From the NCBI RefSeq assembly GCF_000166135.1, contig NC_014666.1, positions 4,030,001 to 4,094,000 of the forward strand: DNA of 64,000 nt, read 5' to 3'. Source of the DNA: Pseudofrankia inefficax (GTDB lineage: Bacteria; Actinomycetota; Actinomycetes; Frankiales; Frankiaceae). Position numbers and translations under genes: made by a program. Below are positions 12,003 to 58,039 of the stretch, piece after piece. The notes under the pieces were generated by a model that worked only from the letters and a program-made list of their open reading frames with translations, made no database searches and was not told the DNA's origin. Each line of letters starts with the position of its first letter. The first letter of the stretch is position 1.

Positions 12003-13289
12003 TCAGCTCGTCGGCTCGCTGCGGACGGACGGCGTGTGCCGCACGTCCCGGAAGGGGAGGCCACGGTCAGGCGCTGCTTCCCGCGGCATGCCGAGTACCC
12101 GCTCGGCGACGGCGTTGCGTGCCATCTCGGTGGTGCCGCCGGCGATGCTCATCAGCTGGCGAACCAGGTAGCCGGTGCCCTGGCTGCGTACCTGGTCATC
12201 GTCGTCGTCGGCCCAGACGGCGGCATGGCGACCAGCCAGCTCGAAGCCAATGGTGGCGAGCCGCGACTCCACCTCGCCGTGCATCAGCCGGCTCACGGAT
12301 GCGAGCTGGTCGGACGCCTCATGATGGGCGATGGCGGTCTGCACATGGCGGTCGAGTTCACGCGACACGAGACGAAGGACATGGGCCTCGGCGACGAGCT
12401 CACGAGCGGTCGGGTCGTGGCGCCTGCCGACCAGTTCCGCGAGGCGGAGCATGTCGGCGCCGGCGCCGACCGATGGCCCACCGCCAACGTCGGCGGAATC
12501 CGGTCGCGAAGTGAGCGGCGAGGAGTGAATGGTTCGTTCGTGGAACATCCACCGGGTCGCCACGCTCCAACCGTCGTCGACAGGGCCGACGCAGGCGTCC
12601 GCCGGCACGACAACGTCCGTCAGGAACTCCTGGCAGAACTCCTTGTTGCCGTTGATCATCTCAATGCGCGAGACCTCGATGCCCGGCTGGTGAATGGGCA
12701 GCATGAAGACGGTCAGCCCGCGGTGTTTCGGAACGTCCCAGTTGGTCCTCGCCAGGCACAGGGCCCAGTCGGACCACCAGGCACCTGTCGTCCAGATCTT
12801 CGATCCGTTGAGGACCCAGCTGTCCCCCTGGCGCTCGGCGCTGGTCCGCACGCTGGCGAGATCCGAGCCCGAACCGGGCTCCGAGAGGAACTGCATCCAG
12901 AGCTCCTCGCCGCGCAGGATCGCCGGGATGTGCGCCAGTTTCTGGTCGTGGGTGCCGAATTCGAGCAGGATGGCCGCGCACGGCGTCATCGTCGGGACCT
13001 GCATCCGCATCGGATATCGGTGGCCCGCGAGTTCCCTGCCGAACGCCGCTGCGTGCCCGGGAGTCAGGCCTAGTCCGCCGTACTCCTTCGGGAAGCAGAT
13101 GCCGGCGAATCCTCCGTCCCAGAGCAGCCGCTGCAACCGCCGCTCCTCGGCGACCTCGGCAAGCTCCTGCTCGTCGGAACGGGCGGCGAGCGGCCCTCGG
13201 TCCTGCGCGGTCAGGGTCGGCAGGTTCGCGCGGATCCAGCGCCGGGCCCGCGACCGGAACTCGGCGATCGGCTCGATCTCATCGGTCAT
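12003..13289 (-). CDS. acyl-CoA dehydrogenase, large partner of a pair
   Basis: This 428-residue FAD enzyme would oxidise an acyl-CoA to the 2-enoyl-CoA. Family motifs are SEPGSGSDLASV (about 140-150), GSKIWTTGAWW and the C-terminal AGGTTEMARNAVAERVLG. Its start overlaps the end of the gene at 13279-14439 by 11 bp, so both are one operon. Adjacent, dissimilar acyl-CoA dehydrogenases in actinobacteria often form alpha2-beta2 complexes acting on bulky, steroid-like acyl-CoAs. That assembly is inferred here. The protein carries a ~30-residue tail beyond the last helix. Confidence 0.87.
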   Translation of the reverse strand: MTDEIEPIAEFRSRARRWIRANLPTLTAQDRGPLAARSDEQELAEVAEERRLQRLLWDGGFAGICFPKEYGGLGLTPGHAAAFGRELAGHRYPMRMQVPTMTPCAAILLEFGTHDQKLAHIPAILRGEELWMQFLSEPGSGSDLASVRTSAERQGDSWVLNGSKIWTTGAWWSDWALCLARTNWDVPKHRGLTVFMLPIHQPGIEVSRIEMINGNKEFCQEFLTDVVVPADACVGPVDDGWSVATRWMFHERTIHSSPLTSRPDSADVGGGPSVGAGADMLRLAELVGRRHDPTARELVAEAHVLRLVSRELDRHVQTAIAHHEASDQLASVSRLMHGEVESRLATIGFELAGRHAAVWADDDDDQVRSQGTGYLVRQLMSIAGGTTEMARNAVAERVLGMPREAAPDRGLPFRDVRHTPSVRSEPTS

Positions 13290-14439
13290 CAGACGACGGC
13301 TCCTGTTCGATGTATCGCCGTTCGATCAGATCAGCGAGCCGCAGCCGATGCTGCCGCGGTGTCCCGAGCAGCGTGCTCGACAGGGCGACCCGGCGAAGAT
13401 AGAGGTGCAGATCGTGCTCATAGGTCAGGCCGATTCCGCCGTGTAGCTGGACGCACTCCTGGCACAGCTCCGGGCCGCGGTCGCCGATGTACGACTTCGC
13501 GACACTGACCATTTCGATCGCCTGGCCGAGATCGTCACGGACCGCGGTCGTGAGCGCGTCGACAAGCGCCTGGCTGGCCTCCAGCCACATCTTCATGTCG
13601 GCGAAGCGGTGCTTGAGCGCCTGGTAGGACGCCAGCGGCCGGCCGAACGAATATCGGTCAGCGGCCCAGGCGACGGTCAGGTCAAACGCCCGGTCCATCG
13701 CCCCGACCATCTCGGCGAGCTGGATGACAAGCGCGTCGCACACCTGACGTTCGATCTCGGTCGTGGCCGAGAGGGGCTGACCCACCATGCTCGTCGCCGG
13801 CACGTGGACATCGTTGAAGTCCACCTGAGCGAAGCGGCGGCTCACGTCGATCGAGCTCAACGGTCTGATGACCAGCCCGACGCTCGTAGCGGGAACGAGC
13901 AGTTGCAGCAGCCCGGCGCCGACCCGCGCGGTCACCAGGAACAGGCTCGCCTGGGAACCGTGCTCGACGGGAGCGGTTCCGCCGGACAGTATCCAGTCGT
14001 GTCCCGCGGGCCGGGCGACAACGGAGACCGCTCCAGGCAGCCCGGTCAGTTCCGGCGCTGCCGGGCACCACGCCGCGACGGCTTCCCCGGAGACCAGCGG
14101 GCCGAGCGCGGAATGAGCGAGATCGCCGCCCGCCCGCGACAGCGCCGCCGCCACGACATTTGTTCCCAGCAGCGGCCCCGGTGCCGCGGCGCGCCCGAAC
14201 TCGCGTGCCACCAGGGCCAGATCGCGCAGGCCGTCGCCGCTGACAGTCCCGCCGCCGTGTTTCTCCGCCACGAGCAGCGAGGTCCACCCCAGTTCCGCTC
14301 CGGTCTGCCAGTACTCCGGCCGGTAGCCGTCAGCGGTGTCGCGCAGCCCGCGTAACAATGCCGTCGGGACCGCGTTCTGGAGGAACTTTCGTGTCGTGGC
14401 CACCAGCAGTTCCTGGTCCGCCGTGAGGCCTGACTTCAC
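13279..14439 (-). CDS. acyl-CoA dehydrogenase, small partner of a pair
   Basis: The 386-residue protein is a second acyl-CoA dehydrogenase fold. Its C-terminal HGGIGLTYEHDLHLYLRR is typical of the partner lacking the AGGTTE motif. The middle domain is less conserved, as in heteromeric FadE subunits. It is the first gene of a two-gene minus-strand operon, with an 11-bp overlap into the next. Upstream lie a 16-bp tandem repeat and a palindrome that may hold its promoter and operator. The acyl-CoA substrate is unknown. Confidence 0.85.
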   Translation of the reverse strand: MKSGLTADQELLVATTRKFLQNAVPTALLRGLRDTADGYRPEYWQTGAELGWTSLLVAEKHGGGTVSGDGLRDLALVAREFGRAAAPGPLLGTNVVAAALSRAGGDLAHSALGPLVSGEAVAAWCPAAPELTGLPGAVSVVARPAGHDWILSGGTAPVEHGSQASLFLVTARVGAGLLQLLVPATSVGLVIRPLSSIDVSRRFAQVDFNDVHVPATSMVGQPLSATTEIERQVCDALVIQLAEMVGAMDRAFDLTVAWAADRYSFGRPLASYQALKHRFADMKMWLEASQALVDALTTAVRDDLGQAIEMVSVAKSYIGDRGPELCQECVQLHGGIGLTYEHDLHLYLRRVALSSTLLGTPRQHRLRLADLIERRYIEQEPSSDDR

Positions 14440-14474
14440 CTGTCTTCCTTCCCCTCGCCGAAGAGGCGTCCTCC

Positions 14475-14554
14475 GTGACCCCGCGAAGCCGTGACCCCGC
14501 GAAGCCGTGACCCCGCGAAGCCGTGACCCCGCGAAGCCGTGACCTCGCGAAAGC
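14475..14554. repeat. five tandem copies of a 16-bp unit
   Basis: GTGACCCCGCGAAGCC starts at 14475, 14491, 14507 and 14523 with identical sequence. A fifth copy at 14539 has drifted (GTGACCTCGCGAAAGC). The array lies 36 bp upstream of the start at 14439. Its copy number is likely to vary between strains. Confidence 0.9.
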
Positions 14555-14713
14555 GGGCCCAGGCGGCCTCGGGTTGGGCCCCGAGCCGACGATGAGTCCC
14601 GATCCGGAGCCGCGCCGCGGTCCCCGTTCCTGATCGCGGACGGCGCTGAGGTGCTTGGCCCGAGCGCCGCGGGGCGGCGCCGGCCGCTCCTGCCGCAGGC
14701 TACCCTAAAATTA

Positions 14714-14731
14714 CTATCATTATCCTGATAG
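14714..14731. promoter_or_regulatory. palindrome CTATCA-N6-TGATAG, candidate operator
   Basis: Perfect 6-bp arms with a 6-bp spacer lie in the only AT-rich patch of the gap between two divergent acyl-CoA dehydrogenase operons. The spacer contains most of TATCCT, a possible -10. The shape fits a GntR or TetR operator. Confidence 0.45.
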
Positions 14732-15016
14732 CGCCAAGCGGTGGGGTGGGTGTGCTAGACGGCGGACCTGTCGTTGATCGGCGAGCCTGCCGGCGGCGAC
14801 CTTCCGAACGGCGACCTCATCGTGCGCGTCCCTGCGGTCATCTGTGAACGACAACGATGGTCTGGCGGGACCGGGCGAGGCAAGATCATGCCTTCCTGGC
14901 CGGTGGTCGCCGGGATCTGCCTGGCCGCGCGACCTTCGTACCTGCGGCGCCGCTTGACCGGGTAATGGTTATCCTCTTAGTGTGGCCGGCATGTCGAACA
15001 GCTCCATGCGGGGTGC

Positions 15017-16213
15017 GTGGCAGCCGGAACCTGTGCGGATGGGCCGGTAGGCGGCGTGGACTTCTCGTTGCCAGTCGAGGTGGACCTGTTTCGCGCGGAG
15101 CTGGGTGCCTGGCTGGCCGCGAACCTGACGGATGACGTCGTGTCGGCCGGTCGTCACCGGGGGTCAGACCCGAAGTCGTTCGAGACGCTTCGCGGGTGGG
15201 ACCGGGCGATGGCCGACGCGGGGTGGGCAGCCGTCTCGTGGCCACGCGAGTACGGCGGCCGCGGCGCGACGGCGCTCGAGCAACTCGTCTACGCGGAGGA
15301 GGTCACCGGGGCCGGAGCGCCGTTGCCGATCAACATGATCGGCCTGAACAACATCGCGCCGGCGATCATGCATTACGGGACGGACAGCCAGAAGCGTACG
15401 CTTCTGCCGCGGATGAGGCGTGCCGAGGACATCTGGTGCCAGGGCATGTCGGAGCCTGGCGCGGGCTCGGATCTCGCCTCCCTGCGCACCCGCGCGGTGC
15501 GCGACGGCGACGAGTTCGTGATCAATGGCCAGAAGACCTGGACATCGCTCGGACACTGGGCCGACTGGTGTCAGCTGTACGTGCGCACCGATCCCGAGGT
15601 GCCCAGACACCGGGGCATCTCGTGCCTCATCGTCGACATGTCGCTGCCCGGCATCGACGCCCGGCCGCTCACGACGCTCGGCGGCGACACGGATTTCGCC
15701 GAGGTCTTCTTCGAGGACGTGCGTGTGCCGGCCACCGCTCTGCTCGGGCCGTTGAACGCCGGCTGGCAGGTCGCCACCACGACGCTGAGCCACGAGCGTG
15801 CCGGAGCCGCGCGGCTCTATGCCGAGCTGCAGGTCTGGCTTCATGACCTGGTAAGCGACCTCGCGCGTACGGAGTCGGGCGGCCGGCGGCCGTTGGAGGA
15901 CCCGTCAACGCTGCGCCGCCTTGGAGAGATCGCCGTGCGCATAGATTTCCTGAAACGGTTATGCCAGCGCTCGATTTCCGCGGGCCTCCATGGCGGTGAC
16001 CCGTTCGGCTCCGCGAGCCTGGCCAAGACCGTGTGGGGCGAGATCGGCCAGGATCTGGCCGCTCTCGCATTCGATCTGCTCGGTGCGCGGAATCCCGGTG
16101 GTCGGTGGGCGGATCTGCGCCTGTCGTCGCGGTCGCTGACCATAGCCGGGGGCACGACGGAGATCAATAGGAACATCACCGCACAGCGAGTCCTCAAGCT
16201 GCCGCGCGGATGA
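15017..16213 (+). CDS. acyl-CoA dehydrogenase, large partner of a second pair
   Basis: The protein has 398 residues (385 if the GTG at 15056 is used). It shows MSEPGAGSDLASL near residue 145, the INGQKTWTS strand, and the C-terminal AGGTTEINRNITAQRVL, all hallmarks of the FAD-binding, substrate-oxidising type. The next gene starts inside its stop codon (ATGA), so the two are a translationally coupled pair. With the amidohydrolase that follows they make a three-gene operon. It resembles the gene at 12003-13289 in role but is clearly a different paralogue. Confidence 0.87.
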   Translation: MAAGTCADGPVGGVDFSLPVEVDLFRAELGAWLAANLTDDVVSAGRHRGSDPKSFETLRGWDRAMADAGWAAVSWPREYGGRGATALEQLVYAEEVTGAGAPLPINMIGLNNIAPAIMHYGTDSQKRTLLPRMRRAEDIWCQGMSEPGAGSDLASLRTRAVRDGDEFVINGQKTWTSLGHWADWCQLYVRTDPEVPRHRGISCLIVDMSLPGIDARPLTTLGGDTDFAEVFFEDVRVPATALLGPLNAGWQVATTTLSHERAGAARLYAELQVWLHDLVSDLARTESGGRRPLEDPSTLRRLGEIAVRIDFLKRLCQRSISAGLHGGDPFGSASLAKTVWGEIGQDLAALAFDLLGARNPGGRWADLRLSSRSLTIAGGTTEINRNITAQRVLKLPRG

Positions 16214-17334
16214 ACCTCGAACCGACCGATGAGCAGCGGGCCCTGCGGGCCACGGTCCGGCGTTTTCTCGCCGAGCGCGCGACGATCGCGGAACACGTCC
16301 GCCCGATGCTCGCCGACCCGACGGGAACGACCGACCTCGTCTGGCGGGGTCTGGCCGATCTTGGTGCTACCGGCCTGCTTGCCGCGACCGAGCATGGCGG
16401 CGCGGGTATGTCCCTGGTCGAGGCGGGGATCGTGCTCGAAGAACTGGGCGCCGCGCTGTACCCGGGCCCGTGGCAGTCCAGCGCGGTCGCGGCCGCCCGC
16501 GCTCTCGCGCGAACCGGGGCCAGCGGCGACGAGGCCACGAAACTGCTGGCGGGGATCGCCGACGGGGCCACCATCGCGACCGTCGCCCCGCTGGAGGCGA
16601 CCGACGGTCGGCCGACCGCCGAGCTTCGGCGCGACGGATACGTCCTGCGCGGCGGAATGCCCTCCGTACCGGATGCCGCGGCGGCCGACGTCCTGCTCGT
16701 GCTCGCCACCGATCGTGGCGACGAGGTCGGCCTGTTCCTGGTCGACGCCACCGGCGTCGGCCTCACCGTCACCCCGCGGCCGACCATCGACCAGACCCGG
16801 AAGCAGTGTCAGGTCACCCTCAAGGACACCCCGGCACGGCGCCTGTCGACCGTGTCGCCCGAGGCGTTGACCGCCCTCGTCGACGACGTGCTCATCGCGG
16901 CGGCCGCGGACGCGGTCGGAGCCGCGCAGGCGGTCCTGGACCTGGCGATCCAGCATGCGACGACGCGACAGCAGTTCGGCCAGCCGATCGGATCATTCCA
17001 GGCCGTGCAGCGTCTGTGTGTGGACATGTACGAGTCCGTCGAACTGGCGCGCAGCGGCGTCCTGCACGCACTCTGGGCCGCCGACGCCGGTTCCGCGGAG
17101 GAGCGGCACCTGTCGGCTTTGCGGGTGAAGGCGTTCTCCGGGCGGCTCGCCGCGGTCGGCGACGCCGCCATCCAGGTGTTCGGCGGTCTCGGCTACACCT
17201 GGGAACACGACGCTCATCTCTACCTCAAGCGGCTGTTGAGCTGGAGCGCGCTGCTCGGGGAGCCGGACCGCTATCTGAAGGAAGTCGGCTCGGCGCTCAC
17301 CCGCTCGCTGACAGTCACGAGGAGCCCGCTGTGA
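16210..17334 (+). CDS. acyl-CoA dehydrogenase, small partner of a second pair
   Basis: At 374 residues it carries the partner-type ending GGLGYTWEHDAHLYLKR and lacks the AGGTTE motif of the preceding gene. It overlaps its neighbours by ATGA upstream and GTGA downstream. The likely product is a subunit of a heteromeric acyl-CoA dehydrogenase that desaturates a CoA thioester. The subunit pairing is inferred from family precedent. Confidence 0.86.
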   Translation: MNLEPTDEQRALRATVRRFLAERATIAEHVRPMLADPTGTTDLVWRGLADLGATGLLAATEHGGAGMSLVEAGIVLEELGAALYPGPWQSSAVAAARALARTGASGDEATKLLAGIADGATIATVAPLEATDGRPTAELRRDGYVLRGGMPSVPDAAAADVLLVLATDRGDEVGLFLVDATGVGLTVTPRPTIDQTRKQCQVTLKDTPARRLSTVSPEALTALVDDVLIAAAADAVGAAQAVLDLAIQHATTRQQFGQPIGSFQAVQRLCVDMYESVELARSGVLHALWAADAGSAEERHLSALRVKAFSGRLAAVGDAAIQVFGGLGYTWEHDAHLYLKRLLSWSALLGEPDRYLKEVGSALTRSLTVTRSPL

Positions 17335-18753: not shown

Positions 18754-19578
18754 TCAGACGTTGCTTCGGAATCCAAGGTTCTGCGTCGGCGGACCCGTCA
18801 AATTCACCGTGATCGTCGGATCAACGGGCCGCATCGCGGTCCTGGACTCCTCGAGATGCCAGCGGGTCAGCTGCTCGGCCGCGGCACCATCGCCCGACTC
18901 GATCACCCGGGTGATTTCCAGGTGAGTACGGAGGGACGCCCGGGCCGCCGGAACGGGCCCACCCCCGGCAGCGGCCGTGTCCACCTCTCGTGGCACGTGA
19001 TAGGACCAGACCCGATCCACCGCCGCGAGTGTGAGATACATGGTGTGATTGCCGCAGTGCTCCACGAGCGTTCGATGCCATGCGCTCAGGATGCGCGCGA
19101 ACTCCTCCGGACTCGTGTCGAGGGAGGCTTCCGCGCGTTCATTCAGAGCGACCAGCAGCGGTACTACCGTCTGCTGCCGGTCGTCGCGTCCCGCGGCCAG
19201 GCGGGCACACAGCGGTTCAAGGTTGAGGAGCGCCGTGGATACGTCGGCAAGCGTCACCCGGTGGGACTGCATAACCAGACCCAGCTGATAGGCCGCCCCG
19301 CCGGCGTCGGGCGCGTGCACAACCGCGCCGCCGATATTTCCGCGTCGAACTGTGACGAGGCCCTCGGTTTCGAGGATGCGCATGACCTCGCGCAGTGAGG
19401 CACGCGCGATACCGAACTCCGCCATCAGGTCATCTTGCTTCGGAAGGAGGTCGCCGTCCGCGAGCTCCCCGTTGACGATTCGGGACCGCAAGACGCCGGC
19501 GACCGCTTCGGCGACGCGCGGCACGGCCATCGGCCTGGTGCGCCGGTCGGATGCGTCAGAGAGAGCCACCCGCAGCAT
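18754..19578 (-). CDS. GntR-family regulator, FadR subfamily
   Basis: The 274-residue protein has a winged helix (LLPKQDDLMAEFGIARASL, then REVMRILETEGLVTVRRG) and an all-helical FCD effector domain. A D-x3-H type metal or ligand site is plausible around AWHRTLVEHCGNH. FadR-type regulators answer to carboxylic acids or acyl-CoAs. The ATG at 19578 is preferred because homology starts there; the frame stays open further upstream without conserved sequence. It is divergent from the cysteine-less aldehyde dehydrogenase homologue, with a palindrome between them, so it probably controls that gene and itself. Confidence 0.82.
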   Translation of the reverse strand: MLRVALSDASDRRTRPMAVPRVAEAVAGVLRSRIVNGELADGDLLPKQDDLMAEFGIARASLREVMRILETEGLVTVRRGNIGGAVVHAPDAGGAAYQLGLVMQSHRVTLADVSTALLNLEPLCARLAAGRDDRQQTVVPLLVALNERAEASLDTSPEEFARILSAWHRTLVEHCGNHTMYLTLAAVDRVWSYHVPREVDTAAAGGGPVPAARASLRTHLEITRVIESGDGAAAEQLTRWHLEESRTAMRPVDPTITVNLTGPPTQNLGFRSNV

Positions 19579-20202
19579 GATACGGAAGTCGGTCCGTTCT
19601 GGGCCGACCGGCCTGAACCCCATCGGGCCCTGTCGGAGAAGCTCACCGAGCAACGCCCAGCCGACTCCGATCCGCCCACCGCCAGAAGTGACTGAATCGC
19701 GGCTGCGTGATCTTTGTCCGGGGTTTTCCGTTCCCATCCTCGGCGACTGTCTGGGTTTCTCCCGTCGGGGCACGCGCTTGCTGCCGCCTCGGACGCCCGA
19801 CAGGTTCCGGACACCGCGGCCGTGGCGGTCCTCGACCACGCTTCGGCGGCGCCGGTGCTGAGCGCGGTCGCCGCGGGCACGCCCGACGTCGTGCCCTCCG
19901 GTGCGTTCGGCCGCCGGTCGCGCGGCGAAGGCCGGCCTCGCTGATCGCGATCACCGACCCGCCCGACGCCGACGCCGGGCGTCGCCCTCTAGGCGCGATA
20001 CTGACATGTGCGTCAGTGCCGTTGTAGTCTGCATCTAGCTCGTCCAAGGGTCTGAGCGCTCTCCGAGGTGACAGTAGCGTCATAAGGGCGGATTCCCGTG
20101 GCCCGCACGGGCGAGGGGCCACACCCATGCGTCAGGACCATGGAAGGCGGCGGACATGTCGACCCCTGTCGGCGACGCGGGCGCCCGAGCGACGGCCGCA
20201 TC
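19579..20202. other. 624-bp divergent control region
   Basis: No complete gene is supported here. A plus-strand stretch at about 19780-19940 has a coding-like composition but no start. The palindrome at 20000-20017 and a TAGTCT -10-like hexamer near 20025 mark the probable promoter of the aldehyde dehydrogenase homologue. Confidence 0.45.
20000..20017. promoter_or_regulatory. palindrome ACTGAC-N6-GTCAGT, candidate operator
   Basis: Perfect 6-bp arms with a 6-bp spacer lie between the divergent GntR/FadR-type gene and the aldehyde dehydrogenase homologue. A regulator binding here could repress the latter. Its layout equals that of the palindrome at 14714, though the arm sequence differs. Confidence 0.45.
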
Positions 20203-21669
20203 ATGATCGACGAAGAGTCTCGTCTGCTGGTCAACGGGCGGCTCACGCGGGCCGCGGGTGGCCGCACGTTTGACAATCTGAACCCGGCGACTGAAGAGAT
20301 CATCGGTCGGGTGGCGGACGCTGACGCCGGCGACCTGGATGCGGCCGTGGCCGCGGCGCGTGACGCGTTCGACCTGACGGAGTGGTCCGTCGACCATCAG
20401 CTTCGCGGGCGTTGCCTGCTCCAACTGCAGGATGCGCTGGAGCGGGAGCGGGAGGAGATCCGCGCTGAGCTGGTCGCGGAGGCAGGCTGCCCGGTCTCGA
20501 TGACGTACATGACTCAGCTCGACCTGCCCCTCGCGGACGCCCTGCGGTGGCCCGCGGCCGCGATCGGCGACATCCCGTGGGTGCGCGATCTGCCCGTGGT
20601 CGAGCTGTTCGGCCTGCGTAGCTGGCGCAAGGTGGTCAAGGAACCGGTCGGGGTCGTCGGCGTGATCACACCGTGGAGCAACCCGATCGGAATAACCCTG
20701 TCCAAGCTCGGACAGGCGCTCGCGACGGGCAACACCGTCGTTCTGGCGCCGGCGCCGGAGACACCATGGACAGCGGCCCGCCTCGGGCGCCTGATCGCCG
20801 AGGAGACCGAGATTCCGCCGGGCGTGGTCAACGTCATCACGGCGTCCGACCGCGCGATCGGCGAGGCCCTTGTCACCGATCCGCGGGTGGACCTGATCGC
20901 CTTTACCGGCTCGACGGCCACTGGTCGGCGGATCATGGAACAGGGCGCTTCGACGCTGAAGCGTCTCTGCCTCGAGCTGAGCGGCAAGTCCGCCGACATC
21001 ATCCTGGACGACGCTGACTTCGCCGCGAAGCTCTGCCTGGCCTGGATGGTCTGTCTGCACGGCGGGCAGGGCAGCGCGATGCCCAGCCGCCTGCTGGTGC
21101 CTCGTACCCGCTATGACGAGGCGATCGAGCTTGTGGCCGACGGTTTTTCGAAGGTGCCGATCGGAGATCCGACCGATCCCGCGAACATCCAGGGCCCGCT
21201 GATCAGCGCGGGGCAACGTGACCGTGTTCTGCGGTGCATCGCCGGCGGAGTGCGTGAGGGTGCGCGCCTGGTGGTGGGGGGCGGGCGCCCGACGCACCTG
21301 GAGAAGGGGTACTACGTGGAGCCCACGCTGTTCGCCGATGTCGACAACGTTATGACGATCGCTCGGGAGGAGATCCTGGGGCCCGTCCTGGTCGTGATCC
21401 CGTTCGAGGACGACGCCGACGCTGTTCGGATCGCGAATGACAGCGGCTATGGGCTTTCCGGCGCGGTGACGTCTGGGTCCGGGAAACGCGCCGAGTCCGT
21501 CGCGGCGCGACTAAGGGCAGGTCGGGTCTCGGTGAACGGGGGAATCTGGTACGGCGCCGATCTTCCATTCGGTGGCTACAAGGCGAGTGGACTCGGCGTC
21601 CAGAACGGCATCGAGGGCTTCGAGCAGTACCTGGAGACGAAGGCGCTGTCCGGGCTGGTCGGTCGGTGA
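20203..21669 (+). CDS. aldehyde dehydrogenase homologue lacking catalytic residues (pseudoenzyme candidate)
   Basis: The 488-residue protein has the full aldehyde dehydrogenase fold and closely resembles the paralogue at 37510. Several key residues are replaced. The nucleophile is Ser291 (GGQGSAM against GQGCAM), the catalytic Asn is Ser159 (TPWSNP against TPWNYP), the cofactor-binding Lys is Ala182 (LAPAP against LKPAP), and the EIFGP Phe is Leu392. Only the general base Glu258 stays (LELSGKS). The frame is intact, so this is not simple decay. I infer no ordinary dehydrogenase activity; a serine-based esterase or a binding/scaffold role is possible. It is divergent from a FadR-type regulator. 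Confidence 0.85.
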   Translation: MIDEESRLLVNGRLTRAAGGRTFDNLNPATEEIIGRVADADAGDLDAAVAAARDAFDLTEWSVDHQLRGRCLLQLQDALEREREEIRAELVAEAGCPVSMTYMTQLDLPLADALRWPAAAIGDIPWVRDLPVVELFGLRSWRKVVKEPVGVVGVITPWSNPIGITLSKLGQALATGNTVVLAPAPETPWTAARLGRLIAEETEIPPGVVNVITASDRAIGEALVTDPRVDLIAFTGSTATGRRIMEQGASTLKRLCLELSGKSADIILDDADFAAKLCLAWMVCLHGGQGSAMPSRLLVPRTRYDEAIELVADGFSKVPIGDPTDPANIQGPLISAGQRDRVLRCIAGGVREGARLVVGGGRPTHLEKGYYVEPTLFADVDNVMTIAREEILGPVLVVIPFEDDADAVRIANDSGYGLSGAVTSGSGKRAESVAARLRAGRVSVNGGIWYGADLPFGGYKASGLGVQNGIEGFEQYLETKALSGLVGR

Positions 21670-21702
21670 GGATGCCACGGCAGCCGCGCGTGGCTGCTCC
21701 TC
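21668..21702 (+). terminator. hairpin after the aldehyde dehydrogenase homologue
   Basis: GCAGCC/GGCTGC with a 6-nt loop is flanked by GAGGA/TCCTC, with one 7-nt bulge. It begins at the stop codon and has no U-tract. Confidence 0.4.
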
Positions 21703-36284: not shown

Positions 36285-37513
36285 CGACCGCCCACGCCGC
36301 CGAGCCGGCCCTTCCCGTCAGCGCCCCAGCCAGCCCGTTCGACTGGAACCCGTTCGCCCAGTCCTTCTACAACGACCCGCAGCCGGCCTACCGCCGGCTC
36401 CGCGACGAGGCGCCGGTCTACTACAACGAGAAGCAGAACTTCTACGCGCTTTCCCGGCACGCCGACGTGGCGGAGGCGCTCAAGGACACGGCGACCTTCT
36501 CGTCGACGCGCGGTATCGAGCTGCACTCCATCCAGGAGGGCCAGGTCGCCCACGCCGGCATCATCCAGATGGACCCGCCGGAGCAGACCCGGATGCGGCT
36601 GCTGGTGAGCCGGGCGTTTCAGCCCCGCGTCATCCAGGGCCTGGAACCCGAGGTCGTGGCCGTGATCGAGCACTATGCGGGCGGTCTCGGGCAGGAGTTC
36701 GACGCGGTCGCCGACTTCTCCGCGCTCTTCCCGATGGAGATCATCTCGCGGATGGTGGGCATCCCGGCCGAGAAACGGGACTGGATGCGCCACGGCATCG
36801 ACTACATCCTCGGCCGTGACAACTCGCCCGCCATGACCGACGACCAGATGAGGGTCGCCATCGAGCTGTCCACCTACTACTACACGCTGGCCGTCGAGCG
36901 CCGGAACAACCCGGGCGATGACATGATCAGCATGCTGATCGAGGCCGAGGTGCTCCGCGAGGACGGGACGAAGACCGCCCTCGACGACATCGAGATCACC
37001 ACCTTCATCTCGCTGCTGGGCGGCGCCGGCGCCGAGACCGTCACCAAGCTCATCGGGAACGCGGTCGTCCTGTTCGGCCGCCACCCCGACCAGTGGCAGC
37101 TGCTGCAGGAGCGGCCCGAGCTCATCCCGAACGCCGTCGAGGAGGTGCTGCGCTACGACCCGCCGGCCACCTACACGGCCCGATGCCTGGCTCGGGAGTA
37201 CACCGGGCACGGCGTGACCATTCCGGCCGGGGCGGCGGCACTGCTGCTCATCGGCGCGGCCACCCGCGACGAGCGGGCCTACGAGGACCCGGAGCGGTTC
37301 GACATCCGGCGCGAGCCGCAGATGAACCTCGCGTTCGGCTTCGGCGCCCACCGTTGCCTCGGCGCGGCGCTCGCCCGGATCGAGGGGCGGGTGGCGCTGG
37401 AGCGGCTGCTGCGCCACATGCCGCGCTTCGAGGTCGACGAGAGCGGTCTCCGCCGGGTCAACATGACCAATGTTCTGGGCTACTCGAACGTTCCGGTCCG
37501 GGTGCTGCCATGA
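36281..37513 (+). CDS. cytochrome P450
   Basis: The 410-residue soluble monooxygenase has all signature sites: I-helix LLGGAGAETVTK for oxygen activation, ExxR as EEVLR, and the heme loop FGFGAHRCLG with the axial cysteine. It hydroxylates a C-H bond with electrons from a ferredoxin; no ferredoxin gene is nearby. The GTG start overlaps the CoA-transferase stop and the stop overlaps the aldehyde dehydrogenase start. Its place suggests terminal or ring hydroxylation of the pathway substrate before sulfation or oxidation. Confidence 0.92.
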   Translation: MTTAHAAEPALPVSAPASPFDWNPFAQSFYNDPQPAYRRLRDEAPVYYNEKQNFYALSRHADVAEALKDTATFSSTRGIELHSIQEGQVAHAGIIQMDPPEQTRMRLLVSRAFQPRVIQGLEPEVVAVIEHYAGGLGQEFDAVADFSALFPMEIISRMVGIPAEKRDWMRHGIDYILGRDNSPAMTDDQMRVAIELSTYYYTLAVERRNNPGDDMISMLIEAEVLREDGTKTALDDIEITTFISLLGGAGAETVTKLIGNAVVLFGRHPDQWQLLQERPELIPNAVEEVLRYDPPATYTARCLAREYTGHGVTIPAGAAALLLIGAATRDERAYEDPERFDIRREPQMNLAFGFGAHRCLGAALARIEGRVALERLLRHMPRFEVDESGLRRVNMTNVLGYSNVPVRVLP

Positions 37514-38973
37514 GCGGCGAGTCGAGGCTGCTCATCGGTGGAAAGCTGACGGACGCGGCAAGCGGCCGCACGTTCGACAACATCAACCCCGCGACCGAGG
37601 AGATCCTCGGGTCGACGGCCGACGCCGACCTGGTCGACCTCGACGCGGCGATCGCGAGCGCCCGCGTCGCCTTCGACACGACGACCTGGTCCACCGACCG
37701 CGCGCTGCGCAAGCGGTGCCTGCTGCAGCTGCAGGAAGCGCTGGAACGGGAGCGCGAGGAGATCCGCGCCGAACTGGTCGCGGAGGTGGGCTGCCCGGTC
37801 GCCACGACGTACATGGCGCAGCTGGAGCTGCCGCTGGAGGACGCGCTGCTCTGGCCGGCCAGAGCGATCGACGAGTTCCCCTGGGAGCGTGAGCTCTCGA
37901 CCGGCAACCAGTTCGGCATGCGGAGCTGGCGGAAGGCGGTGAAGGAGCCGGTCGGGGTGGTCGGGGCGATCACACCGTGGAACTACCCGCTGGAGATCAC
38001 TCTCGGCAAGCTCGGCCAGATCCTCGCCACCGGCAACACGCTGGTCCTCAAGCCGGCGCCGGACACGCCCTGGACCACCACCCGGATCGGCCGGCTGGTC
38101 GCGGAGCACACCGACATCCCGCCGGGCGTCGTCAACGTCGTCGCCTCGGCCGACCACGCGCTCGGGGAAGCCCTGGTCGACGACCCACGCGTCGACCTGA
38201 TCTCCTTCACCGGGTCCACCGCCACCGGGCGGCGGATCATGGAAAGGGGCTCCGCCGGCCTCAAGCGCCTCTTCCTCGAGCTGGGCGGCAAGTCCGCCGA
38301 CATCGTCCTGGACGACGCCGACCTCCCGGCGAAGCTGGCCTTCGCCTCGTTCGTCTGCATGCACGCCGGCCAGGGCTGCGCGATGACCACCCGGCTGCTG
38401 GTGCCCCGGTCCCGCTACGACGAGGCCGTCGAGCTGGTGGCGGCGAGCTTCGCGAACGTGCCGTACGGCGACCCGACCGACCCCGCGAACATCCAGGGCC
38501 CCCAGATCAGCGCCCGCCAGCGCGACCGCGTGCTCGGCTACGTCGAGGCGGGCCTGCGGGAGGGCGCCCGGCTGGTGACGGGCGGCGGTCGGCCGAGCCA
38601 CCTCCCGAAGGGCTTCTACGTCGAGCCGACCCTGTTCGCCGACGTCGACAACACGATGACGATCGCCCGCGAGGAGATCTTCGGCCCGGTCCTCGTGATG
38701 ATCCCGTTCGAGGACGACGACGACGCGGTCCGGATCGCGAACGACAGCCCCTACGGCCTGTCCGGCGCGGTCACCAGCGGCTCAGCGGAACGAGCGCTGG
38801 CGGTGGCCGGGCGACTCAAGGCCGGCACGGTCTCGGTGAACGGCGGGATCTACTACGGCGCCGACGTTCCGTTCGGCGGCCGCAAGGCGAGCGGGATCGG
38901 CCGGCAGAACGGCGTCGAGGGCTTCGAGCAGTATCTGGAGACCAAGTCGATCGCCGGTCTCGCGGCCTCGTGA
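37510..38973 (+). CDS. NAD(P)-dependent aldehyde dehydrogenase
   Basis: The 487-residue enzyme oxidises an aldehyde to an acid. Catalytic Asn158 (TPWNYP), cofactor Lys181 (LKPAP), base Glu257 (LELGGKS), nucleophile Cys290 (GQGCAM) and the EIFGP motif are all present. It is the closest relative in the window of the cysteine-less homologue at 20203, and the two surely arose by duplication. It starts within the P450 stop (ATGA) and ends overlapping the DUF35-Ltp2 gene (GTGA). It would turn the P450-derived alcohol or aldehyde into the acid used by the CoA transferase. Confidence 0.93.
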   Translation: MSGESRLLIGGKLTDAASGRTFDNINPATEEILGSTADADLVDLDAAIASARVAFDTTTWSTDRALRKRCLLQLQEALEREREEIRAELVAEVGCPVATTYMAQLELPLEDALLWPARAIDEFPWERELSTGNQFGMRSWRKAVKEPVGVVGAITPWNYPLEITLGKLGQILATGNTLVLKPAPDTPWTTTRIGRLVAEHTDIPPGVVNVVASADHALGEALVDDPRVDLISFTGSTATGRRIMERGSAGLKRLFLELGGKSADIVLDDADLPAKLAFASFVCMHAGQGCAMTTRLLVPRSRYDEAVELVAASFANVPYGDPTDPANIQGPQISARQRDRVLGYVEAGLREGARLVTGGGRPSHLPKGFYVEPTLFADVDNTMTIAREEIFGPVLVMIPFEDDDDAVRIANDSPYGLSGAVTSGSAERALAVAGRLKAGTVSVNGGIYYGADVPFGGRKASGIGRQNGVEGFEQYLETKSIAGLAAS

Positions 38974-55083: not shown

Positions 55084-56549
55084 CGACGGCCGTGGGAGTC
55101 CCGATCGGCCAGCGGCTGAGCGACCTCGCCGCGGCGGACCCGCACCGGCTGTCCGTGGTGGTCGTCCGCCAGGACGGCGGTCGCGAGGCGCTCGACCGCC
55201 AGCAGGTGGAGGACGGCGCGAACCGGTGGGGCCGGGCGCTGGCGGCCCGCGGGCTGGCGGCCGGGGATCGCGTCGCGCTGCTGGTCCACAACTCGGTCGA
55301 GCTGGTCCTGGGAGCGCTCGGTGCCTGGAAGGTGGGCGCCGTGCCCGTTCCGGTGCGCTGGGACCTGCCCGCCTGGGAACGAGAGCGGGTCCTCGCGGTC
55401 GTCGCCGCCCGGGTGGTGATCGACGAGGGAACCGCGCCAGCCCTGCGGGCCGAGGCCGCGGCGTTCCCGGCCGACCCGCTCCCCACGGTCACCTCGCCGC
55501 ACTCGTTCGGCATCTGCAGCAGCGGCTCCACCGGCACGCCCAAGGTCATCGTCAACACCCGGCCAGGCCGGTGGACCGCGGAGCTCTCGACGCCGTTCGC
55601 CGAGAACTTCGGCGGCCCGGTGACACATCCGCAGGTCGTTCTCGTGCCCGCGCCGATGTATCACACCAACGGTTTCATGACCCTCAACTCGCTGCTCGGC
55701 GGTGACCGCCTGGTCATCATGGAGAAGTTCGACGCCGTGGCGGCCGTCGACGCGATCGAGCGCGAGGGCGTCACCACCTTCACCGCGACGCCGACCATGC
55801 TGCAGCGCCTCGCCGCCGTTCCCGGCATCGACGGCCGAGACCTGTCCCGGGTCGAATGGATCCTGCAGGGCGCCGCGATGATGCCGGCCGCGCTGCTGCG
55901 CCGGTGGTTCGAACTGCTGGCGCCCGAGAAGGTCATCATGGCCTACGGCATGACGGAGCAGCTCGGGCTGGTCGCGATTCGCGGCGACGAGTGGCTCACC
56001 CATCCCGGAAGCGTCGGGCGGGGTTTCCGCGGCACCGAGCTCAGGATTCTGGACGAGAACCAGAATCCGGTGCCGGCCGGGACGTACGGCGACGTCTACC
56101 TGCGCTCGCCCGTTACCGGGGCCTACGACTATCTCGGGGGAGCGCCGCTGCTGCCGACCACTCCCGACGGTTTCGGGACGGCCGGCGACATGGGGCACCT
56201 GGACGAGCAGGGCTACCTCTATCTGGCGGACCGCCGGGTGGACATGATCATCACCGGTGGCGCGAACGTCTTTCCCGCCGAGGTCGAAGGCGCGCTGTCC
56301 GAGCACCCGGATATCGCCGATGTCGTCGTCGTCGGGCTGTCCGACCCCGCCTGGGGCCGGCGGATACACGCGATCGTCGAGCGCCGGCCGGGCACCACCG
56401 GGCCGACGGAGCAGGAATGCATCGAGTTCGTGAAGGCGCGGCTGGCGTCCTACAAGGCGCCGAAGACGGTGGAGTTCGTCGCCGAGCTGCCGCGCAGCGC
56501 CGCGACGAAGATCAGTAGATCCGCGCTCGTCGCCGAGCGGGGCGGCTGA
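55080..56549 (+). CDS. acyl-CoA synthetase (AMP-forming)
   Basis: The 489-residue ANL enzyme is shorter than the other three in the window. It has CSSGSTGTPKV (phosphate loop, ~residue 145), YGMTEQLG, GTAGDMGHLDEQGY and a C-terminal lysine in SAATKISR. The compact N-terminal domain recalls bile-acid-CoA ligase or 4-coumarate-type enzymes acting on ring acids. It is coupled to the SDR upstream (ATGA) and to the aldehyde dehydrogenase downstream (TGATG). Confidence 0.88.
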   Translation: MTTAVGVPIGQRLSDLAAADPHRLSVVVVRQDGGREALDRQQVEDGANRWGRALAARGLAAGDRVALLVHNSVELVLGALGAWKVGAVPVPVRWDLPAWERERVLAVVAARVVIDEGTAPALRAEAAAFPADPLPTVTSPHSFGICSSGSTGTPKVIVNTRPGRWTAELSTPFAENFGGPVTHPQVVLVPAPMYHTNGFMTLNSLLGGDRLVIMEKFDAVAAVDAIEREGVTTFTATPTMLQRLAAVPGIDGRDLSRVEWILQGAAMMPAALLRRWFELLAPEKVIMAYGMTEQLGLVAIRGDEWLTHPGSVGRGFRGTELRILDENQNPVPAGTYGDVYLRSPVTGAYDYLGGAPLLPTTPDGFGTAGDMGHLDEQGYLYLADRRVDMIITGGANVFPAEVEGALSEHPDIADVVVVGLSDPAWGRRIHAIVERRPGTTGPTEQECIEFVKARLASYKAPKTVEFVAELPRSAATKISRSALVAERGG

Positions 56550-58039
56550 TGGCCGCGCCCGCCGACGGGAACCTGCCGCGTCCTGCCGTCCGACCGGCCC
56601 AGAAGGGTGAAGCCGTGCACGAGTACCAGCGCTTCTTTGTCGACGGCGCCTGGGTGGAACCGAGAACGGACGTCGCCGTCGAGGTCCGCTCGCCGCATGA
56701 CGGCGCCGCCGTCGGCACGGCGCCGGGCGCCGTCGCCGAGGACATCGACGTGGCTGTGGCCGCCGCCCGGCGCGCCTTCGACGAGGGTCCGTGGCCGTGG
56801 CTGTCGCCGGCCGAGCGGATCGCGGCGCTGCGGCCCTTCGTCGAGCGCTACGGCGCGCGGACCGCGGAGATGGCCGCGCTGGTGACCGGCGAGATGGGCT
56901 CGCCGGCCTGGTTCTCCGAGCAGGCACACGGGCTGGGGCCCTGGTACCTGATGGGGGAGACGCTCGCCTTCGCCGAACGGTACGACTGGGAGCGGCGCCG
57001 GGGGCGCAACCTGCTCAGGCGGGCGCCGTCCGGTGTCGTGGGGATCATCACGCCGTGGAACGTGCCGCAGGTGACGATCATCGCGAAGCTGATGCCGGCG
57101 TTGCTCGCCGGCTGCACGGCGGTCGTGAAGCCGGCACCGGAGACGCCCCTGGACGCCATGCTCCTGGCGACGATGCTCGCCGAAGCCGACCTGCCGCCCG
57201 GCGTCGTCAGCGTGATCACGGGCGGCGCGGAGGCCGGTCGCCGGCTGAGCGAGCATCCCGGCGTCGACAAGGTGGCCTTCACGGGCAGCGCGGCCGTCGG
57301 GGCGCGGATCGGGAAGGCGTGCGCCGAACGGCTGGCCCGCTGCAGCCTCGAGCTCGGCGGCAAGTCCGCCGCGATCGTCTGCGAGGACGCGGACTTCGGC
57401 CGGACGATCGACGGCCTGCGCTTCGCCTCCTTCCTGAACAACGGCCAGGCGTGCGTCGCGCAGACCCGGGTGCTCGCGCCCCGGTCGCGTTACGAGGAGT
57501 TCTGCGCGGCGTTCGCGGCGATGGCCTCGTCGCTGGCGGTCGGAGACCCGGCCCTGGCCGACACGTACGTCGGACCGCTCGTCTCGGCCCGCCAGCGGGA
57601 GCGGGTCGCGTCCTACCTGGAGATCGGGCTGGCCGAAGGCGCGGTCGCGGCGGCCGGCGGCCCCGGTGAGACGGGCGACCCGCGCGGTCACTACGTGCGG
57701 CCGACGGTGTTCCGCGATGTCACGAACGACATGCGGATCGCCCGCGAGGAGGTCTTCGGACCGGTCGTCGTCGTGATTCCCTACGAGGACGAGGACGACG
57801 CCGTCAGGATCGCCAATGACTCCCCCTACGGCCTCGGCGGGTCCGTCTGGACCAAACACCGGGCACGCGGACTGAGCATCGGCCGGCGGGTACGCACGGG
57901 GACCTTCGGGATCAACGGCTACGGGCCGGAGTTCACCATGCCGTTCGGCGGCTTCAAGGCCAGCGGCATCGGCCGTGAGTACGGACCCGAGTCCTTCGAC
58001 GAGTACGTCGAGCTCCAGTCGATCTACGGCGTCGCGTGA
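56549..58039 (+). CDS. NAD(P)-dependent aldehyde dehydrogenase
   Basis: The 496-residue enzyme has TPWNVP (catalytic Asn), VKPAPETP (Lys), LELGGKS (Glu), NNGQACVAQ (Cys) and EVFGPVV, so it should be active, unlike the homologue at 20203. It is a separate lineage from the two other copies. An alternative GTG start at 56615, after AGAAGGG, would remove 22 residues and begins at the conserved sequence; the ATG at 56549 overlaps the ligase stop. It oxidises a pathway aldehyde to the acid. Confidence 0.92.
   Translation: MAAPADGNLPRPAVRPAQKGEAVHEYQRFFVDGAWVEPRTDVAVEVRSPHDGAAVGTAPGAVAEDIDVAVAAARRAFDEGPWPWLSPAERIAALRPFVERYGARTAEMAALVTGEMGSPAWFSEQAHGLGPWYLMGETLAFAERYDWERRRGRNLLRRAPSGVVGIITPWNVPQVTIIAKLMPALLAGCTAVVKPAPETPLDAMLLATMLAEADLPPGVVSVITGGAEAGRRLSEHPGVDKVAFTGSAAVGARIGKACAERLARCSLELGGKSAAIVCEDADFGRTIDGLRFASFLNNGQACVAQTRVLAPRSRYEEFCAAFAAMASSLAVGDPALADTYVGPLVSARQRERVASYLEIGLAEGAVAAAGGPGETGDPRGHYVRPTVFRDVTNDMRIAREEVFGPVVVVIPYEDEDDAVRIANDSPYGLGGSVWTKHRARGLSIGRRVRTGTFGINGYGPEFTMPFGGFKASGIGREYGPESFDEYVELQSIYGVA

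Follow-up and report, generated by a model that had tools for sequence, protein, structure and literature searches.

Gene, flanking features, and paralogue

The window analyzed here is a 64,000-nucleotide stretch of Pseudofrankia inefficax DNA (contig NC_014666.1, positions 4,030,001 to 4,094,000), taken from a genome that consists of a single contig of 8,815,781 bases. At positions 20203 to 21669 on the plus strand lies an open reading frame (ORF) that is translated into 488 amino acids with no internal stop. Its product matches the Pfam family PF00171 (Aldedh) over the whole length with 447 bits and has the aldehyde dehydrogenase (ALDH) fold, which makes it a member of the Aldedh superfamily. 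The gathering score of that family is 23, and profile-based annotation passes such genes as ordinary aldehyde dehydrogenases. The best NCBIfam model for the product is TIGR04284 (aldehy_Rv0768, a hypothetical equivalog), with 645.7 bits, below the curated cut-off of 775, and the protein is placed in the Rv0768-like branch of ALDHs. What distinguishes it from this group is the score under the cut-off, which it shares with a paralogue (702.8 bits), and the missing catalytic residues described below.

The paralogue, of the active type, is encoded at 37510 to 38973 on the plus strand (487 amino acids). Alignment showed that it is 74% identical to the 20203 product (358/488) and that its catalytic residues are present. 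The ATGA at its start overlaps the stop of an upstream P450 gene, and it belongs to a separate operon, with the P450 gene and a CoA-transferase-like gene, 16 kb from the 20203 gene. Gene order thus gives no indication of a physical partnership between the two products.

Upstream of the 20203 gene and divergent from it, a regulator of the GntR/FCD family was recognized by profile matches (longest ORF, 18754 to 19839, minus strand), and the arrangement is the same in Frankia sp. AgB1.9, the other species in which the gene was found. Since the GntR domain of this ORF starts only at residue 110, the true start of the regulator gene probably lies further in. Between the two genes, we found a perfect inverted repeat, ACTGAC-N6-GTCAGT (20000 to 20017, 18 bases), a candidate operator whose arms are conserved in AgB1.9 and whose spacer differs. 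A repeat of this kind with at most one mismatch is expected 0.08 times per window and was present in 8 of 100 shuffles; each of the two genomes contains the 22-base pattern a single time. A 16-codon ORF (MSTPVGDAGARATAAS; 20156 to 20206, plus strand), preceded by a purine-rich stretch and found in AgB1.9 with two residue changes, ends in a TGA that overlaps the ATGA at the start of the 20203 gene, making it a candidate leader peptide or a means of coupling. The start at 20203 is plausible. There is also an in-frame ATG at 20140, which would add 21 residues to the N terminus (20140 to 20202; MEGGGHVDPCRRRGRPSDGRI), and AgB1.9 has this extension with two changes.

The regulator, the inverted repeat, the 20203 gene, and a gene for a solute-binding protein are grouped in both species. 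No microcompartment shell-protein family was detected among the 18 neighbors scanned. Further to the left (12003 to 17334) lie acyl-CoA dehydrogenase genes in two divergent pairs, with a gene for an amidohydrolase adjacent; the arrangement hints at a catabolic cluster.

Active-site residues and predicted fold

Translation and alignment revealed six substitutions in the product. Codon 159 (AGC, 20677 to 20679) specifies Ser in place of the oxyanion Asn of the family, codon 182 (GCG, 20746 to 20748) Ala in place of the cofactor Lys, codon 260 (AGC, 20980 to 20982) Ser in place of a subfamily Gly two residues past the general base, codon 291 (AGC, 21073 to 21075) Ser in place of the nucleophilic Cys, codon 392 (CTG, 21376 to 21378) Leu in place of the nicotinamide-contacting Phe, and codon 466 (GTC, 21598 to 21600) Val in place of a subfamily Arg; all six lie on the plus strand. 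Ser159, Ala182, Ser291, and Leu392 in a whole frame had been reported in a sequence-only reading of this DNA, and our translation confirmed them. Its statement that the paralogue keeps all these residues also proved correct, with Asn, Lys, Cys, and Phe, plus GG, present there. The other two changes are additional: position 260 is Gly in 78/78 scored subfamily rows, and position 466 is Arg in 79/79.

Expressed in ALDH2 numbering, Ser291 occupies the position of Cys302, the nucleophile (also named in a PDB title), and Ser159 that of Asn169, the oxyanion residue, with Asn retained in AgB1.9. Ala182 and Leu392 correspond to Lys192 and Phe401. The general base Glu268 and also Glu399 are retained as Glu258, within LELSGKS, and Glu390, the former being Asp258 in AgB1.9. 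Val466 corresponds to Arg475, the partner of Glu487, by our own motif count. Passages of PMC8160307 describe the roles of ALDH2 Lys192, Glu268, Glu399, and Phe401, as well as the contact of Glu487 with Arg475.

At position 291, Cys was found in 124 of 127 aligned rows and Ser in three, which are the 20203 gene twice and its AgB1.9 orthologue, i.e., two distinct proteins; the 127 rows contain no further Ser291. Identical stretches were merged here, so that L060 and L027 stand in for L030 and L114; no usable alignment was obtained for L133 and L134. The P. inefficax genome has 47 PF00171 places, 45 of which were aligned and yielded 44 Cys and 1 Ser, a count that leaves out two weak matches (65 and 35.5 bits).

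Conservation was scored over a subfamily set of 79 rows, each with 50% or more identity to the paralogue, and 105 columns conserved in at least 97% of these rows were regarded as near-invariant. The 20203 product keeps 99 of the 105 and departs at six (N159S, K182A, G260S, C291S, F392L, and R466V), and the AgB1.9 orthologue departs at seven (K168R, K182A, E258D, G260S, C291S, F392L, and R466V). The paralogue departs at none, partly by construction, because it and its AgB1.9 copy are among the 79 rows. The worst other rows depart at six, five, and four columns yet keep the Cys, the row with six being a distant Cys-bearing relative (L056); it is therefore the kind of departure, not the number, that is unusual in the 20203 product. 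Of its six lost columns, four belong to the strict set of N, K, E, C, E, and F (P, 5e-5, hypergeometric test), and with Gly260 included the catalytic or cofactor-site columns number five (P between 3e-6 and 2.5e-4 when the set is assumed to comprise 8 to 16 columns); the sets and their sizes were picked post hoc with the result already seen. Chance was ruled out by the row counts at position 291, as was an assembly error, the same Ser, Ala, and Leu occurring in the separately assembled AgB1.9 genome.

Judging from these residues, the 20203 product has presumably lost dehydrogenase chemistry and does not carry out NAD-dependent oxidation. Weak residual chemistry is conceivable, because Glu258 and Glu390 are retained in the P. 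inefficax copy.

The predicted monomer has a complete ALDH fold, with a pLDDT of 89.2 versus 92.9 for the paralogue. Among the best 50 structure matches listed, the prediction agrees with solved ALDHs at TM scores of 0.92 to 0.95, and these matches include Cys302Ser, Arg475Gln, and ALDH2*2 structures. The loop around Val466 (462 to 468) was predicted with low confidence, as the blocks within 451 to 470 scored 54 and 49, versus 77 and 66 in the paralogue. This difference is suggestive only, the whole model being less confident as well.

Orthologue, origin, and selection

One orthologue was found, in Frankia sp. AgB1.9 (assembly of 9.8 Mb in 280 contigs). It is 93% identical, has a whole frame and collinear flanks, and carries five of the six changes (K182A, G260S, C291S, F392L, and R466V), differing in Asn159 and in the change of Glu258 to Asp; both the 20203 gene and the paralogue lie in collinear stretches of that genome. 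Ser291, Ser159, and Ala182 had been put forward as possible clade-wide residues: the first and the last are common to both species, and Ser159 is not. Neither retention of the Cys nor a broken frame, either of which had been named as a sign of simple decay, occurred in the single orthologue examined. At the DNA level, the stretch with the regulator and the 20203 gene (18754 to 21690) is 86.8% identical to AgB1.9, versus 91 to 93% in the adjoining stretches, although values at the far left of the common region are low as well (84.8 and 89.5%).

Besides AgB1.9, no orthologue above 75% identity was seen among the matches listed in a family and gene-order search of the same 35 genomes, among the 4 candidates that were scored across the listed part of 396 genomes of the phylum (E ≤ 1e-190), or in 49 loci of a contig scan with short patterns, which may omit near relatives. 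In a tblastn search of plasmids, the best place among the best 10 of 3369 records reached 61.8%. Each species is represented by one genome in the collections searched, and the plasmid matches and most family-search matches were judged on identity alone. A literature search, largely of papers outside subscription, found no report of the protein.

In a tree of 117 of the 127 rows (L031 and nine rows shorter than 430 amino acids were left out), constructed by a quick method with SH-aLRT support only, the 20203 product groups with its AgB1.9 orthologue (support, 100), and the two paralogues make up the sister group of this pair (support of 99 where the pairs join and of 100 for the paralogues). 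The two copies would thus have split after parting from their nearest sampled relatives and before the split of P. inefficax and AgB1.9, most simply by a duplication in their common lineage. The active site of the 20203 copy would have been dismantled on its stem branch through K182A, G260S, C291S, F392L, and R466V, as these five changes are common to both species and most simply predate the species split. After that split, Asn159 would have been lost in P. inefficax and Glu258 would have become Asp in AgB1.9, with purifying selection acting on the protein ever since the stem changes.

The constraint was estimated from one species pair. Comparison of the 20203 gene with its orthologue gave an NG86 dN/dS of 0.127 (98 synonymous and 39 nonsynonymous differences), and the paralogue pair gave 0.114. 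The former value falls inside the range of eight neighboring genes on the same contig (0.057 to 0.268), from which four ORFs with values of 0.93 to 1.94 (8746-, 43200-, 44750-, and 47318-) were left out as presumed wrong-strand ORFs; the same-contig range itself lost one ORF in this way. A codon maximum likelihood branch model (8 sequences, 480 codons) yielded omega values of 0.101 (stem), 0.060 (both tips), and 0.032 (all other branches). With omega set to 1, the loss was 110.4 lnL units for the tips (2 delta lnL, 221) and 6.1 for the stem. The clade as a whole had an omega of 0.067 versus a background of 0.032 (P, 0.0025). Simple parsimony counted about 54 changes on its stem versus 30 on that of the paralogue (P, 0.012), a count reduced from 56 because two N-terminal changes were alignment effects, with the P value recomputed. 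The clade evolves faster than the remainder but is clearly under constraint, and because it is faster, some relaxation soon after the duplication is conceivable.

Possible roles of the 20203 protein

These data indicated that the 20203 gene probably encodes a pseudoenzyme, in which a complete ALDH fold has lost its chemistry and the scaffold is kept under purifying selection. In the one species pair, catalytic residues are lost and frame and fold are maintained. As far as sequences tell, a non-catalytic role appears well supported, and the earlier suggestion of selection for another role gained support from the intact frame, the dN/dS of 0.127, and the active-site changes common to the gene and its one orthologue.

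The protein joins an already known kind, represented by Cys-to-Ser ALDHs of bacterial GRM1 loci and by human ALDH16A1. Part of PMC4207490 describes GRM1 microcompartment loci in which a second AldDH with Ser or Pro in place of the Cys lies beside another ALDH, and a scaffold or regulator role is proposed for it. By analogy, this would be the closest bacterial precedent found, a Cys-to-Ser ALDH with an active-type ALDH alongside. The GRM1 pair shares one locus in a microcompartment setting, whereas the 20203 protein belongs to the Rv0768-like branch, has no shell-protein family among the 18 neighbors, and also lacks the cofactor Lys, the Gly, the Phe, and the Arg475 equivalent; the two were compared by description. 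The part of PMC6325248 covered here contained nothing on an inactive GRM1 ALDH. ALDH16A1 is presented in passages of PMC10650815 and PMC8160307 as an ALDH-fold pseudoenzyme that lacks catalytic residues, like the 20203 product, and has a proposed role as a binding protein. Those passages describe it as devoid of the entire catalytic triad, whereas the 20203 product retains Glu258, comes from a bacterium, and has a sister copy of the active type.

How such a protein would act is a more tentative matter. Action at the protein level on the active paralogue or on another ALDH of the genome is a guess beyond the data that we regard as possible, somewhat short of an even chance; it is favored in view of the 74% identity between the sister copies and of a passage of PMC10709515 that calls ALDH2*2 (Glu487Lys) a dominant negative mutant. 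Co-assembly into mixed dimers or tetramers would damp or stabilize active subunits, or else an aldehyde or acyl ligand would be bound without turnover, in competition for the ligand. The regions compared in the two copies are helix 236 to 249 (helix G), well conserved with 12 of 14 positions identical, and hairpin 127 to 148, identical at 13 of 22. The latter lies under the overall 358/488 and does not favor mixed oligomers. The proposal that the 20203 protein is a decoy or regulatory partner of the paralogue is plausible. The loss at the Arg475 equivalent is reminiscent of ALDH2*2, whose NAD site, according to a passage of PMC8160307, becomes disordered once the contacts of Glu487 are lost. 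The 20203 changes affect the same positions as ALDH2*2 and the engineered Cys302Ser and Arg475Gln enzymes, namely, the nucleophile, replaced by Ser, and the Arg475-Glu487 contact; those are a human allele and laboratory mutants, whereas here the changes belong to a gene in its own right that two species carry. That this gene is a fixed bacterial counterpart of ALDH2*2, whose inactive subunit would join and tune the active paralogue, selected in two species and equipped with its own conserved upstream element, strikes us as rather unlikely in this specific form.

The main alternative, to which we give about one chance in a handful, is a pseudoenzyme without ALDH partners that would bind a ligand or act as a sensor in conjunction with the neighboring GntR/FCD regulator. 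The grouping of regulator, inverted repeat, gene, and solute-binding protein gene in both species is consistent with such a sensor, as is the location of the paralogue in another operon. Direct contact with the solute-binding protein is unlikely, however, because the latter is of an extracytoplasmic type (Peripla_BP_6).

An enzyme using Ser291 as the nucleophile and Glu258 as the base, as an esterase, a thioesterase, or a slow dehydrogenase, is improbable, and the serine-based hydrolase offered by the sequence-only reading is disfavored accordingly. With Cys replaced by Ser, both species still have an oxygen nucleophile, and P. inefficax also retains Glu258; against this, Lys182, Gly260, and Phe392 are absent in both, the oxyanion Asn is gone in P. 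inefficax, and the base is Asp in AgB1.9. A different remaining catalytic residue is thus altered in each species, a drift after the split that is unlikely for a maintained serine site and compatible with a non-catalytic protein. Moreover, part of PMC4207490 states that a Cys-to-Ser ALDH cannot efficiently catalyze dehydrogenation. Least probable is a pseudogene in slow decay with a frame whole by chance, a reading that can point to residual catalytic residues still drifting (Ser159 private to P. inefficax, Asp258 to AgB1.9) and to the raised omega of the clade but that is contradicted by the 99 near-invariant positions retained and by the conserved repeat and synteny, and is rejected for the P. 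inefficax/AgB1.9 pair by dN/dS, with its 98 synonymous versus 39 nonsynonymous differences, and by the codon model with omega of 1 on the terminal branches.

Few ALDH pseudoenzymes have a known role. On the preferred reading of a non-catalytic pseudoenzyme, a single genome carries both an inactive copy and its active-type sister, which are 74% identical and separated by defined stem changes, so the function of a dead ALDH is cleanly testable here. The window also holds a third ALDH gene (56549 to 58039), which has canonical catalytic residues and adjoins an acyl-CoA ligase-like gene.
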